Shown here piece after piece: positions 16,138-37,359 of a stretch of 64,000 nucleotides of DNA. The notes beneath the pieces are model-generated. The model was not told where the DNA came from, did not search any database, and was given only the letters and a program-made list of their open reading frames with translations. The first letter of the stretch is position 1, and each line of letters begins with the position of its first letter. The DNA lies in assembly GCF_002288225.1 (NCBI RefSeq), contig NZ_CP016777.1, forward strand, positions 1,240,001 to 1,304,000, in the 5' to 3' direction. This stretch comes from Candidatus Planktophila dulcis. GTDB taxonomy: Bacteria; Actinomycetota; Actinomycetes; Nanopelagicales; Nanopelagicaceae. The position numbers and the translations under genes are program-made.

Positions 16138-16155
16138 ATTCACTACCCGTTCACC
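16138..16155 (+). promoter_or_regulatory. PHO-box-like direct repeat
   Basis: ATTCACT and GTTCACC are spaced by ACCC, giving an exact 11-base period. GTTCACC is the published consensus direct-repeat unit for PhoP binding in Streptomyces. The pair lies 16 bases before the Rieske start and about 140 bases before the divergent PhoX-like gene. Only two units are convincing, so this is a candidate. Confidence 0.42.
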
Positions 16156-16170
16156 TTTCTCATTTACGAT

Positions 16171-16785
16171 ATGAAAGTGAATGCAATTTCGCGAAGAATC
16201 CTGGGTTTCGGATTCATATCCGCCCTAGCCACAATCGCCTTTCCAGCGCTGGCTGCGACAACACCACCAATAAAGTGCCGAGTTCTTGGGCAAACCACTA
16301 CCTACAAGGGCAAGCTCTATACCTGCATCAAGGCAAAGAGCAAAGGTAAGACTGTCCTGGCTTGGGATTCTGGGAAGGTTATTCCTGTTACAAAACCTTC
16401 TCCATCTGCATCAGCCACAGCATCCCCAGCACCTTCTGCGACACCAACTCAATCGGCCGCAGCTGTTGTTAATAAGATTGATATTCCTATTGCCAAATCT
16501 TCAGAAGTTCCAGCAAATTCAACAAAGTCATTTACCGCTAAGAATCGTTATGGGTATAGCACTACCTATTTCATCGCTCGAGGCTCAGATGGACTCATTG
16601 GGATGAATGCCACCTGCACACATAATGGGTGCACTGTGAAACAAGAGAGTGAAGGTCTGCTCTGTCCTTGCCATAGCGCGCTCTTTGATCCTAAGAATGG
16701 TGCGCTACTGCGGGGACCTGCCTCATATCCACTTGAGCGTGTACCAGTGCGTGAAGCAGATGGCACAATCTATATAACTGATTAA
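16171..16785 (+). CDS. Exported Rieske [2Fe-2S] protein
   Basis: A 204-residue protein with an N-terminal signal peptide (ISRRILGFGFISALATIAFPALA), starting at the ATG at 16171. Next come a short cysteine-containing segment (YKGKLYTCIKAKSKGKT), a Ser/Ala/Pro-rich linker (residues ~70-95) and a C-terminal Rieske domain. Cluster ligands are in CTHNGC and CPCHSALFD; the spacing fits small soluble Rieske proteins rather than cytochrome bc1 QcrA. It probably carries electrons or serves as a redox protein outside the membrane; the partner is unknown. The RR in the leader might suggest Tat export, expected for a folded Fe-S protein, although only RR without a full consensus is seen. It converges on the PpgK-like gene with a four-base overlap. 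Confidence 0.87.
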   Translation: MKVNAISRRILGFGFISALATIAFPALAATTPPIKCRVLGQTTTYKGKLYTCIKAKSKGKTVLAWDSGKVIPVTKPSPSASATASPAPSATPTQSAAAVVNKIDIPIAKSSEVPANSTKSFTAKNRYGYSTTYFIARGSDGLIGMNATCTHNGCTVKQESEGLLCPCHSALFDPKNGALLRGPASYPLERVPVREADGTIYITD

Positions 16786-32673: not shown

Positions 32674-34689
32674 TTACGCGACTTTCTTAATACGACCATC
32701 TGCTGCTGGAACTTGGGTTACCTTTCCAGCGGCTAGATCTGCCTTAAGAGCATCTACAAAGAGATCAAGGAGTGCTCCCTGAACCTTTGCTTGAGCTGGT
32801 GAGAACACATTCACATAGCCATCTCCACCGTAGATAACGAAGTCGAGTGTTGTGATTGTGTATTGCTTTGCATCCTTAGGAATTGCAGTTCCATCTAGCT
32901 TTGTTACTTCAACAATTCGGCTACCAGCCGGCTTTGTTGAGTCAAAGCTGAACTTGAATCCTGAAATCTGTGGGAAACGTCCATCACCTGGGTAGTTTCC
33001 TCCGACTCCATTTTCAAGTGCCTTCCACAGGTTTTCACCAGTTACTACTGATGTAGCAATCTGATTTCCAAATGGGAAGACTGTGAATGCATCTCCTAAC
33101 GTCACATCAAGCGCCCCTGTCCCGGTGCGCACAAGTGAAGTATTTGCAGGAATGTATGTCTTTGCAGGGAAGGTATCGCGTATTCCACCACCATTTTGAA
33201 CTGCGAAATCTGTCTTGTATTTAGCGCGCATGAGATCTGCAATGTAATTACCCATTGGAGTTTCTCCAGAGCGTTCTACTGCCGGTGTTCCACCACGTGG
33301 GAAGACACCTGAAACTGTTCCGATCTTCACATCTAGCTTGGCGGTGAGTTGGTCCTTATAGGTCTTCACCATCGCAGCAGCTGCAGCATCTTGAGTTGTT
33401 ACTGTGCTTAAGACACCTGTGTTGATAGTTGGTGCAGCAGCCTTCAATACATGCTGGATTGATTGACCAACTACTTTTCCGCGCTTGATACAGATCTGGG
33501 TACGTGTGTACTCAACGCCTGCATTGCGAGTCTGGCCGAGGACAACTGGATTGGTTCGAATTGTTCCTGGAGTCAGTGTTGCAAAAGTCTGGTGGCTATG
33601 GCCACCGTAGATTGCAGTTGCTCCCTTGATCTGTGCAGCTAACTCATTGAGTTGACCCTTTGCAGTTCCATCAGAGTTCTGTAGCCAACCCTGGTGAAGG
33701 AGTGCAATAACAATCTCAGCGCCAGCAGCCTTAGCCTCTGTAATCGCCTTATTTACCCCAGCAACACCTGGGTTAATTGTGATGGTCTGCTTGGCACCAG
33801 ATGCACTTACGTAATCCAAGTTACCTGGGAATACCTGTTCAATAGTCTCTGGGGTATTGGAGCCGACAACGCCGACTTTCACGCCACCACGTTCGATTAT
33901 CGAGAAGTTCTTCATCTGCTTGGTTCCTGATTTAAGAACTGCAAGTGAGTCTGCGTCATAGTTTGAGACAACCCACTGGAAATTTGAGAGACCGATCATT
34001 TTATTGAGGTGATCTAGCTTTCGGTCATGCTCGTGATTTCCTGGAATTGAAACATCGAGTTTGATTGAGTTAAGAGTTTCAATGGTTGGAATTTCTTCAA
34101 ATTCAGTTGAGATAGGTGGCGCGGCACCAATGTTGTCACCGGATGAGAGAGCAATGGTTGCTACGTTTGCTTTGCGGTCCGCTTCCCAGTTGCTAGCCAA
34201 TAGCGCTGCTCCGAATGATGTGCCGACCTCAATCGCTCCATGGAGATCACTGAGCTGTAGGACCTGCACTGCTTTGTTCGTAGGAGAGGCAACAGTTGCA
34301 AGTTGTGCTGCTGTGTAGGACTTAGTTGATGCTTTTGGTTGTGAAAAACCATACTCATTCACTGCCTGAACAACAGGAGTACCTGCAGGTTGACCGATCA
34401 CAACGGGCATTGTCACAACGTTATTAGCCTTCGCTGGGACAAAGATTGGACATGAGCCAGCACCAGCTGAAACTACATAACCAGAAATCTTTGGTTCCAC
34501 ATCCACACCTGGTGTCCATCGAACAACAACTCCACCAGAGCCAAGATATGAAGTAACACTTGTTGGCGCATTAGGTAGTGCATATGTTGATGCCTGTGCA
34601 CTTGGGGCTATAACGAGCCCAGTTGCCGCGATGACCGCGGTTGATAGAAAGAATGAAAAAGCTGATTTGAGCATAATTGAGGATTTCAT
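32674..34689 (-). CDS. Secreted 5'-nucleotidase/metallophosphatase with N-terminal FN3-like domain
   Basis: A 671-residue exported protein. A signal peptide (residues ~1-33) ends near APSAQA, followed by a fibronectin-III-like domain (~35-125; PNAPTSVTSY through WTPG to VNEYG). The metallophosphatase domain follows with VLQLSDLHGAIE (metal ligands), GDNIGAAP, PGNHEHD and GGHSHQT. The C-terminal 5'-nucleotidase domain has NYIADLMRAKY, NGGGIRDTF and YGGDGY. It probably releases phosphate from nucleotides outside the cell. Alternative start ATG at 34674. Its upstream region holds 11-base-period PHO-box-like repeats and a palindrome next to the start codon. Confidence 0.92.
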   Translation of the reverse strand: MKSSIMLKSAFSFFLSTAVIAATGLVIAPSAQASTYALPNAPTSVTSYLGSGGVVVRWTPGVDVEPKISGYVVSAGAGSCPIFVPAKANNVVTMPVVIGQPAGTPVVQAVNEYGFSQPKASTKSYTAAQLATVASPTNKAVQVLQLSDLHGAIEVGTSFGAALLASNWEADRKANVATIALSSGDNIGAAPPISTEFEEIPTIETLNSIKLDVSIPGNHEHDRKLDHLNKMIGLSNFQWVVSNYDADSLAVLKSGTKQMKNFSIIERGGVKVGVVGSNTPETIEQVFPGNLDYVSASGAKQTITINPGVAGVNKAITEAKAAGAEIVIALLHQGWLQNSDGTAKGQLNELAAQIKGATAIYGGHSHQTFATLTPGTIRTNPVVLGQTRNAGVEYTRTQICIKRGKVVGQSIQHVLKAAAPTINTGVLSTVTTQDAAAAAMVKTYKDQLTAKLDVKIGTVSGVFPRGGTPAVERSGETPMGNYIADLMRAKYKTDFAVQNGGGIRDTFPAKTYIPANTSLVRTGTGALDVTLGDAFTVFPFGNQIATSVVTGENLWKALENGVGGNYPGDGRFPQISGFKFSFDSTKPAGSRIVEVTKLDGTAIPKDAKQYTITTLDFVIYGGDGYVNVFSPAQAKVQGALLDLFVDALKADLAAGKVTQVPAADGRIKKVA

Positions 34690-34709
34690 GAGAGGAGTTA
34701 ACTCTTCTC
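34690..34709. repeat. 20-bp palindrome abutting the nucleotidase start codon
   Basis: GAGA, one base, GAGTT on the left arm and AACTC, one base, TCTC on the right arm, broken only by one mismatched pair. It touches the ATG at 34689 and covers the ribosome-binding region (GGAGAAGAG on the minus strand). It could be an operator or an mRNA hairpin that limits translation. Confidence 0.5.
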
Positions 34710-34721
34710 CTTATTTTTTAA

Positions 34722-34761
34722 TTGGAATAGAAAGTGAAGAGCAGGTTAATTACTGGTGAAA
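34722..34761 (-). promoter_or_regulatory. PHO-box-like array upstream of the secreted nucleotidase
   Basis: On the minus strand four heptamers stand in exact 11-base register: TTTCACC, ATTAACC, CTTCACT and ATTCCAA (spacers AGTA, TGCT, TTCT). The first three keep most of the Streptomyces PhoP unit GTTCACC and the fourth is degenerate. The array starts 33 bases upstream of the nucleotidase ATG, in the gap after the FprA-type gene. Confidence 0.52.
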
Positions 34762-34766
34762 ACTCC

Positions 34767-36041
34767 CTACAAGCCCGCTCTGCTTAGCAGATCCTGGCGG
34801 TCCACAAACTTGCGACGTGGCTTTCCAACCGATTCACCTGCAGCAACTTCAGCAGTGTTGATTGCCTGCCAGTGCTGCTGAGTTACAACCCTGTTATGTG
34901 TAATTACATCGGTGATATCACCTGAAGTTTTAGGTGTTCCAAGATCTTCAAGGAGCAACTGCATCACATCAGCTGCATCCGATTTATTGGTGCCGATAAC
35001 CCCTGAAGGTCCGCGTTTTGCCCATCCAACGACATAGACATTTTCACTTACTCGGCCATCGGTATTAACAACCTTGCCCTTTTCGTAAGGAATTCCTTCA
35101 AGAGATGCTGCCTCATAACCAATGGCGGTAATTACTAAGCCACACTTAATACTGAAGGTTTCATCACTTCCGGTCTTCTGGAAGACAACTTCTTCAACAC
35201 GAGCGTTGCCCTTGATCTCCTTAGGTGTTGCCAAAAACTGGAACTTCATCGTGCGTTCGTGGTTGGTGGCATCTTTTTCCGAAATCAAAAGCATTGCATC
35301 GAGATTGCTCTTCACATCTTTCTCAGGTGCATCTCCTGCGCGAGCAATGGCCGCTTCTATATCTGCCTTATCCATGACTACGTTGGTGTGTTCTAGCTTA
35401 GGAAGGTCGCGAAGTTCAGGTGAGGTAAAGGCTGCATGCTCAGGGCCACGACGGGCGCTGATGATTACTGTGCGCACTTTGCTCTCTTTAAAAGTATCAA
35501 TTGCATGATCTGCCGTATCAGTTGGATCTAGCTCACTTGGCTCAAGTGCCAACATGCGAGCAACATCCATCGCTACATTTCCAGCGCCAATAACGACTGC
35601 CGTATTGGTACTCAAATCAATTGATTCATCTTTGAAATCAGGGTGCGAGTTATACCAAGGCACGAAAGTCGCTGCAGACATTGATCCCGGAAGATCTTCG
35701 CCAGGAATTCCGAGTTTCTTGCCGAGTGCTGTACCTGTTGCAATTACAACAGCGTCGTACTTCTCTTTAAGCTGTTCGATGGTGAGATCGCTACCAAGCT
35801 CAACGTTTGCAAATAATCTGAAGTTTGGTTCATTAGCAACTTTTTCAAATACCTTGGCAACTGTCTTAATCTTTGGGTGATCAGGTGCAACACCGCTACG
35901 AACCAAGCCCCAAGGGGTTGGAAGACGCTCAATCATGTCAATTGCGAATTGGAGTTCTTCTGTTTGAAGATTCTGCAGAGCAAGGGCTGCAAAGTAGCCG
36001 GCAGGTCCTGCACCGACGATTGCTACTTTGTATTGAGGCAC
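34767..36041 (-). CDS. fprA: FprA-type ferredoxin/adrenodoxin-NADP+ reductase
   Basis: A 424-residue flavoprotein with an N-terminal FAD-binding Rossmann motif (VAIVGAGPAGYFAALAL), the LPTPWGLVRSGVAPDHPK segment highly typical of adrenodoxin-reductase-like enzymes, and a second Rossmann motif for NADP (VVIGAGNVAMDVARML). The C-terminal VVGWAKRGPSGVIGTNK segment is also diagnostic. It passes electrons between NADPH and ferredoxin and could feed the P450 at 52989 or other ferredoxin-dependent enzymes. Start codon is GTG at 36041 with AAAGGA five bases before it. Confidence 0.93.
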   Translation of the reverse strand: MPQYKVAIVGAGPAGYFAALALQNLQTEELQFAIDMIERLPTPWGLVRSGVAPDHPKIKTVAKVFEKVANEPNFRLFANVELGSDLTIEQLKEKYDAVVIATGTALGKKLGIPGEDLPGSMSAATFVPWYNSHPDFKDESIDLSTNTAVVIGAGNVAMDVARMLALEPSELDPTDTADHAIDTFKESKVRTVIISARRGPEHAAFTSPELRDLPKLEHTNVVMDKADIEAAIARAGDAPEKDVKSNLDAMLLISEKDATNHERTMKFQFLATPKEIKGNARVEEVVFQKTGSDETFSIKCGLVITAIGYEAASLEGIPYEKGKVVNTDGRVSENVYVVGWAKRGPSGVIGTNKSDAADVMQLLLEDLGTPKTSGDITDVITHNRVVTQQHWQAINTAEVAAGESVGKPRRKFVDRQDLLSRAGL

Positions 36042-36799: not shown

Positions 36800-36817
36800 G
36801 TTCACTTTATATTCACT
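36800..36817 (+). promoter_or_regulatory. PHO-box-like direct repeat between two exported-protein genes
   Basis: GTTCACT and ATTCACT separated by TTAT give an exact 11-base period. Six of seven positions agree between the units, and TTCAC matches the GTTCACC unit of actinobacterial PhoP sites. It lies 18 bases upstream of the -35 of the gene at 36871, a suitable place for an activator. Confidence 0.52.
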
Positions 36818-36870: not shown

Positions 36871-37359
36871 ATGAAGCTAAGAATTCTGACCTTAAGTGCC
36901 ATTCTCATCGCATCCGGAGTAGCGCCTTCTCACGCTGCAACTGTGACAGATAAGATCGTTGTGAATAAGAAAACTGTTGTTACATATTCACTTGCTAACT
37001 CTGTCACTCTCAATCCCAATGGATGTGAAGAGGTCTACATCAAGTACACAATAGATAATTCTTACAACTTCCCAAATGCCTATGTCATGTTTGGACTTTA
37101 TTCAGCCGAAAATAACGAGGCACAGTCAATTTATGTTCAACCTGGAAACGGGAAGAATGGACAAGGTAAAGATGCCTGGGTGGGTGATAAGGAAATGATC
37201 TTCTGTGGGAAAGCTAAGAGCTATGTCAATGAATACGGCGACAAGGTCACCGCACCTGCATTCTCAAAGGGGAAATACACTTTTTCTGCGCGCTTTACAA
37301 TTCTCAAACCTAAATTGTCTACAACTCAATCTAAGAAGATAGCTTTCACGGTTAACTAG
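36871..37359 (+). CDS. Small exported protein of unknown function
   Basis: A 162-residue protein with a signal peptide (MKLRILTLSAILIASGVAPS, cleavage after HAA or nearby). The rest looks all-beta: VTYSLANSVTLNP, EEVYIKYTIDNSY, AYVMFGLYSAE, MIFCGKAKSYVN and KYTFSARFTI strands. Two cysteines (about residues 50 and 111) could form a disulfide, so an immunoglobulin-like fold is likely. I do not recognise a family. It has its own near-consensus promoter and a PHO-box-like repeat upstream. It ends eight bases before the convergent putA stop. Confidence 0.75.
   Translation: MKLRILTLSAILIASGVAPSHAATVTDKIVVNKKTVVTYSLANSVTLNPNGCEEVYIKYTIDNSYNFPNAYVMFGLYSAENNEAQSIYVQPGNGKNGQGKDAWVGDKEMIFCGKAKSYVNEYGDKVTAPAFSKGKYTFSARFTILKPKLSTTQSKKIAFTVN

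Follow-up and report, generated by a model that had tools for sequence, protein, structure and literature searches.

The nucleotidase locus

The window, by which we mean the whole stretch of 64,000 nucleotides analysed (G000:C1:1240001-1304000 of a single-contig genome of 1,348,019 bases; G+C about 47%), contains a gap of 77 bases that separates two co-directional ORFs, and 29 of these bases are occupied by a candidate PHO box. The features of the locus are as follows:

32674..34689, minus strand: secreted 5'-nucleotidase, 671 aa (signal peptide by eye; Metallophos PF00149, 5_nucleotid_C PF02872)
34696..34701, minus strand: putative -10 hexamer TTAACT, -12 to -7 from the ATG
34722..34728, minus strand: ATTCCAA, putative fourth unit, unsupported (3/7 matches to GTTCACC; unit score -11.9)
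34733..34761, minus strand: predicted PHO box of three direct-repeat units in 11-base register, -72 to -44 from the ATG
34733..34739, minus strand: unit 3, CTTCACT (5/7 matches)
34744..34750, minus strand: unit 2, ATTAACC (5/7 matches)
34755..34761, minus strand: unit 1, TTTCACC (6/7 matches)
34767..36041, minus strand: co-directional oxidoreductase ORF upstream of the box (Pyr_redox_2)

From 34761 to 34722 the minus strand reads TTTCACC-AGTA-ATTAACC-TGCT-CTTCACT-TTCT-ATTCCAA. The oxidoreductase ORF stops 5 bases before the box, which starts exactly 72 bases 5' of the nucleotidase start codon. Among NCBIfam models the nucleotidase matched 5'-nucleotidase, UshA and cyclic-nucleotide phosphodiesterase families best, all under cut-off. 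An 11-nt unit with the core GTTCACC is described for Streptomyces coelicolor (PMC4415409), and the array contains three such units, where at least two direct repeats with a GTTCACC-like 7-nt core are taken to make a PHO box. A reading made from the sequence alone had proposed a four-unit array in strict 11-base register, directly upstream of an exported nucleotidase. The register is exact and the position and export signal of the gene hold, but three units stand and the fourth does not: the unit matrix gave registers one to four of the array scores of 10.5, 7.5, 7.5 and -11.9, and among 21 orthologues (of the 22 introduced below; L066 was omitted here and from the period scan) the fourth register averaged -9.4 and the register preceding the first unit -15.0. 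With three of seven matches, ATTCCAA was rejected as a unit.

A terminator-like stem with a T tail (34690-34709, plus strand; 0.4 expected by chance) overlaps the region of the putative -10 hexamer and start codon of the nucleotidase.

The array compared with chance

Under a first-order Markov model, with the published consensus alone and on both strands of the window, 0.13 occurrences of three units with at least 16 of 21 matches are expected, and three positions were observed, the array included. Because three window positions score equally well, the consensus match alone is suggestive but not proof. Consensus scoring was thus unable to settle whether the array is real, and we therefore built an independent training set from pstC promoters. 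The pstC gene was represented by 30 loci from 88 matching genomes; exclusion of the genome's own locus and of L090 and L103 left 27 training loci from 27 other genomes of the family, whose sites (23 distinct) yielded a matrix of 29 positions and 32 bits that includes no nucleotidase sequence, the matrix search being seeded with our own consensus. Leave-one-out scores of the 27 sites ranged from 18.5 to 43.4 (median 37.1), and the best place was unchanged in every case.

When 253,013 bases were ranked on both strands (the window together with stretches chosen for their pho genes, regulators or pattern sites, a part of the 1,348,019-base genome), the top score was that of the genome's own pstC (39.1); the window array came next (24.3), then ppk (10.7) and a site inside an ORF (9.9). 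In 3 Mb of simulated first-order Markov DNA the highest score was 20.4 bits, short of the 24.3 of the array. The repeat period points the same way: the mean best three-unit score of 21 nucleotidase sequences was 10.6 at period 11 and at most -2.7 at any of the others tried (7-15), and period 11 also gave the highest mean among these periods for ppk (15 sequences), phoU (17) and pstC (30, where the comparison is circular).

Raw counts tell less. Genome-wide, the two-unit pattern was found 11 times and its reversed control 17 times, whereas the matrix ranking over 253 kb favours the pho genes; a two-unit motif is too short for counts to reveal enrichment. Since the raw pattern lacks genome-wide enrichment, support for the array rests on position and conservation, not on counts. 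Among ten sites with one mismatch, one is the pstC box; six others were inspected, of which two lie within long ORFs, one overlaps the end of an ORF and three are intergenic or in a short ORF. A covariance model built from the 23 distinct sites, applied to the whole genome (150 of 681 first-look candidates scored), returned five matches that included the own pstC box and did not include the window array; scored directly on the array, the model gave 10.5 bits (E 0.057). Some match at E up to 1 was present in 35 of 41 genomes of the genus, and in G016 one match coincides by coordinates with the nucleotidase box (E 0.007).

Conservation upstream of nucleotidase orthologues

Of 151 genomes of the family, 31 have a nucleotidase match (30 as loci); 14 named loci brought the total to 44 loci (L033-L076), 42 of them with upstream DNA (L072 and L074 without). 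Three duplicates were dropped (L038 = L037, L068 = L036, L073 = L039), 15 loci of a second genus were analysed apart, and L046 and L060 stand outside the resulting set of 22 orthologues of the window type, which comprise 18 distinct arrays. A free search for the best three-unit array placed its start at -72 in 19 of the 22; the other three have it at -74, -73 and -61. Its score was reached by none of 17,600 null windows (from the same loci and of the same length as the searched stretch) in 14 orthologues and by 0.1 to 2.8% of them in the other eight, L044 being the weakest. The orthologue of L046 has no box (P 0.31) and that of L060 a weak one (P 0.02). In the second genus, which has a different upstream region, the units are weaker but phased: 24 of 27 with a score of at least 2 share one phase relative to the inferred GTG start; two of the 15 loci have no such unit. 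The expectation that the repeat would be conserved before orthologous nucleotidases was thus borne out for the 22 window-type loci and for the second genus, with L046 negative and L060 weak.

In the second genus (L047-L059, L061, L076) a palindrome like TTCGAACATTTGTTCGAA lies 5' of the nucleotidase start. It resembles what we take to be the actinobacterial LexA/SOS box, and it probably serves the gene neighbouring the nucleotidase.

Boxes at other genes

Four further pho genes of the same genome carry the motif upstream: pstC (ATTCAGC/GTTCACC/GTTCACT), pstS (GTTCACT/TGTTTCC/GTTTACC, read in the window genome only), ppk (GTTCATG/GATTACC/ATTCACC) and phoU (GTTTACC/GTTCATT/(TGACTTT)/ATTCACC). 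PhoU, PstA, PstB, PstC and Ppk are above their NCBIfam cut-offs, and PstS is below. Across the family, pstC promoters show a three-unit box, e.g., TTTCACC-ATTC-GTTCACC-TTCT-GTTAACT. A repeat of 11 bases at pst and pho genes, which the earlier reading had called for, is therefore present at pstC (the own gene and 27 other genomes), ppk, phoU and the own pstS.

A second model match lies 3.0-3.1 kb downstream on the same strand in seven of 41 genomes of the genus; these matches fit the distance from pstC to pstS in the window genome, and the gene concerned is presumably pstS there too. In two genomes pstC follows directly behind phoU (L090 in G085 and L103 in G079), with best box scores of -1.3 and 11.0, and by coordinates the same order occurs in G028, G051, G067 and G097, whose pstC loci are outside the 30. 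The phoU promoters of the genomes with this order carry a box (L158, L159, L162-L165), and in these members of the genus the pst operon seems to have been placed under the box of the phoU promoter.

Within the window, a shorter box precedes another secreted protein:

36800..36817, plus strand: two-unit PHO-like box GTTCACT-TTAT-ATTCACT, 71 bases before a secreted ORF of 162 aa
36871..37359, plus strand: 162-aa protein (signal peptide by eye; no Pfam family over cut-off)

A search of 16 genomes yielded a single orthologue of this protein, with GTTAACC-ACTT-ATTCACT at -72 and differing flanks, and the protein is possibly a member of the Pho regulon.

Two other sites were recorded. ATTCACT-ACCC-GTTCACC (16138-16155, plus strand) lies at -33 from a secreted Rieske ORF (16171-16785, plus strand). 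It is the best match of the covariance model in the window (16.1 bits at 16139, above the nucleotidase array), and its phase differs from that of the other boxes. Matches to the Rieske protein occurred in 16 genomes, and eight homologues were examined: the one nearest in sequence (L171, 54% identical) has a weaker pair at -33, pairs occur at -20 in L172, at -52 in L173 and at -47 in L174, and the remaining four showed nothing clear. The second site, TTTCAGA-GTAA-TTTCACC-TAAA-ATTCGCC (L031 5487-5515; G000:C1:313486-313514, plus strand), follows directly on one ORF and precedes by about 100 bases another that by eye resembles 6-phosphogluconate dehydrogenase; it is possibly a further box, or possibly chance.

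Promoter geometry

The distance from box to start codon is nearly constant within each gene. For pstC, a start codon follows 72 or 73 bases after the start of the box in 28 of 28 promoters; in 24 of them this is also the first ATG or GTG, and the other four have an earlier one (at 48, 55, 57 or 64). With 130 bases searched, the ppk arrays lie at -50 in all 14 of the 15 loci that have a readable start (L153 has none; in a longer stretch the best place of L145 is elsewhere, at -133), several of them being weak (scores -6.5 to 19.6). The phase of the phoU arrays, i.e., their distance to the start codon modulo 11, is 6 or 7 in 13 of 17 loci, 5 in three and 2 in one. Counted by units with a score of at least 5, phase 6 or 7 accounts for 73 of 76 units in pstC (28 loci), 33 of 46 in the nucleotidase (22 loci), 10 of 10 in ppk (6 of 15 loci) and 38 of 41 in phoU (13 of 17 loci, the ppk and phoU counts being of loci with the start codon at the extrapolated place).

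A hexamer resembling a -10 element ends 6-7 bases before the start codon, as in leaderless promoters. In the nucleotidase promoters (-12 to -7) both of its end bases are T in all 22; among the 28 pstC promoters, as scored, 22 have A at -11 and 20 have T at -7, and in ppk it reads xAnnnT in 14 of 14. Some hexamers are purine-rich (AAGGAT in the own pstC, GAGACT in ppk) and these could be ribosome-binding sequences instead. Across the four genes, the repeats stand mostly in one helical phase to a -10-like hexamer that ends about six bases short of the start codon. This suggests leaderless promoters that depend on an activator, with the regulator held in a fixed helical phase to the -10 element. 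We lean towards a single rule for the Nanopelagicaceae, by which PHO repeats lie at -72, -61, -50, -39 or -28 (11n+6, shifted by one base in some) from a leaderless start and so would fix the phase of the regulator to the -10 across pstC, ppk, phoU and the nucleotidase; new regulon members would then be predictable, e.g., the 162-aa protein at 36871-37359.

The sensor-regulator genes and the likely ligand of the box

A candidate two-component system lies next to phoU:

G000:C1:357318-358007: response regulator of the RegX3/PhoP type, beside the kinase, divergent from phoU
G000:C1:358004-359065: SenX3/PhoR-like kinase, adjoining phoU, divergent
G000:C1:359155-359811, plus strand: phoU (PhoU above the NCBIfam cut-off)

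The best match of the regulator among solved structures is Mycobacterium tuberculosis RegX3 (E 5.8e-98), which we take to be the orthologue of Streptomyces PhoP, and the recognition helices are near-identical (DTKTLDVHIKRLRSKIE versus DTKTLDVHVKRLRSKIE in RegX3). The names of regulator and kinase rest on this match and on the neighbourhood, because neither protein passes any of the NCBIfam cut-offs listed; a PhoR/SenX3-PhoP/RegX3 pair next to phoU is nevertheless recognisable.

We consider the array to be the PHO box operator of this RegX3/PhoP-type regulator, with a probability of about 0.87, the putative binding and phosphate response being predicted from the repeats, their conservation and the genes nearby. 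Upon phosphate limitation, the kinase would phosphorylate the RegX3-like regulator, whose DNA-binding domains would bind the 11-base repeats head to tail at -72 to -44. The bound regulator would then recruit RNA polymerase to a promoter with a -10-like hexamer and without a recognisable -35, and a leaderless transcript would begin at or beside the ATG. The exported nucleotidase would in turn free phosphate from nucleotides, and PstSCAB would import this phosphate.

The genome encodes five OmpR-type DNA-binding proteins, of which one is over the MtrA cut-off, one is GlnR-like and two are without an assignment, and the array might instead be bound by another of them, chiefly the GlnR-like regulator of nitrogen metabolism, alone or in competition with the PhoP-type protein. 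GlnR sites have an 11-base spacing and the consensus gTnAC-n6-GaAAC. Among solved structures, the GlnR-like regulator matches two OmpR-family regulators of no specific name most strongly (8hih, 8hig); a chain named GlnR is a further match (4o1h, E 5.5e-26). GTnAC is matched by unit 3 of 15 of the 22 nucleotidase arrays, versus 7 of 27 pstC boxes. However, neither GTnAC nor GAAAC fits any of the three units in the window, and it is a matrix trained on a phosphate gene that ranks the array second, at a position common with pstC. We therefore regard binding by such a regulator as unlikely at this locus. Because unit 3 fits a GlnR-type core in 15 of the 22 arrays, nitrogen cross-control is possible in relatives; joint control by PhoP and GlnR is the topic of one paper (PMC9206729).

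Even less likely, in our view, is a PHO box that acts as a repressor site or roadblock rather than for activation, or that mainly serves a differently placed start site. PHO boxes in activating as well as in repressing positions have been described in Streptomyces (PMC7244524), but between the box and the ATG here lie 43 bases, the conserved -10-like hexamer among them, and no sigma-70 consensus promoter was found near the array (a weak point, since 0.4 are expected by chance). Coincidence, i.e., TTCACC-like words falling into register by chance in an A+T-rich gap, could appeal to the three window positions of equal consensus score and to a two-unit pattern no commoner than its reversed control, but it is very improbable, being contradicted by a register and an exact distance to the ATG that are kept over 22 orthologues, by the peak at period 11 and by simulated DNA without any site at the score of the array. 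The PHO-box interpretation is thus the one we retain, and the proposal that the array is of the Streptomyces type gains support from its second rank under the pstC matrix, the conserved register and position, and the boxes at pst, ppk and phoU.

Comparison with known systems and significance

In Streptomyces, boxes occur at pstS and ppk, operators comprise two to five units, and a 5'-nucleotidase is regulated by PhoP (PMC7866108). The array described here shares with the Streptomyces PHO box the 11-base direct repeats and the core. Unlike those of Streptomyces, it lies in a window of about 47% G+C and a genome of 1.35 Mb, its units vary at position 1, where about half have G, and to some extent at position 4, where C or A occurs, and it stands at a constant distance from its putatively leaderless start codon, a ruler that was read from Nanopelagicaceae promoters alone. 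In Microlunatus phosphovorus, the PolR site GTTCACnnnnnGTTCaC was footprinted 5' of a pit gene and is present in five bound promoters, and the targets of PolR include pstS and ppk (PMC6754071); its repeat and spacing are the same as those of the array. PolS-PolR, however, was proposed there to respond to oxygen (PMC6754071), whereas the regulator beside phoU in the window genome is RegX3-like. The pho box of Escherichia coli PhoB is likewise composed of tandem 11-base units, but its core is CTGTCAT instead of GTTCACC (PMC4415409). With the mycobacterial SenX3-RegX3 system the likeness is one of proteins and gene order: the regulator matches RegX3 best, and the genes here are divergent from phoU. 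A poor -35 is a feature of Escherichia coli PhoB promoters.

Freshwater bacteria of this kind are hard to grow, and phosphorus often limits plankton. The open-licence PMC papers among the top-ranked results of our literature search name no PHO box for Nanopelagicales. Actinobacteria of the Baltic Sea are reported to show strong expression of pstS, and regX3/senX3 to make up 25% of the regulatory transcripts in the free-living prokaryotes of that study (PMC13086504). What we describe is very probably a genuine PHO box of the Streptomyces type in a streamlined freshwater bacterium of the Nanopelagicaceae, as judged from repeats and comparative genomics. Its promoter ruler is unusually exact. The box also indicates that a Streptomyces-type regulatory code has been kept through genome streamlining, with a tight promoter geometry. 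With the phosphate-starvation operator known, the genes that these bacteria use upon phosphate depletion would become readable from genomes and metatranscriptomes.
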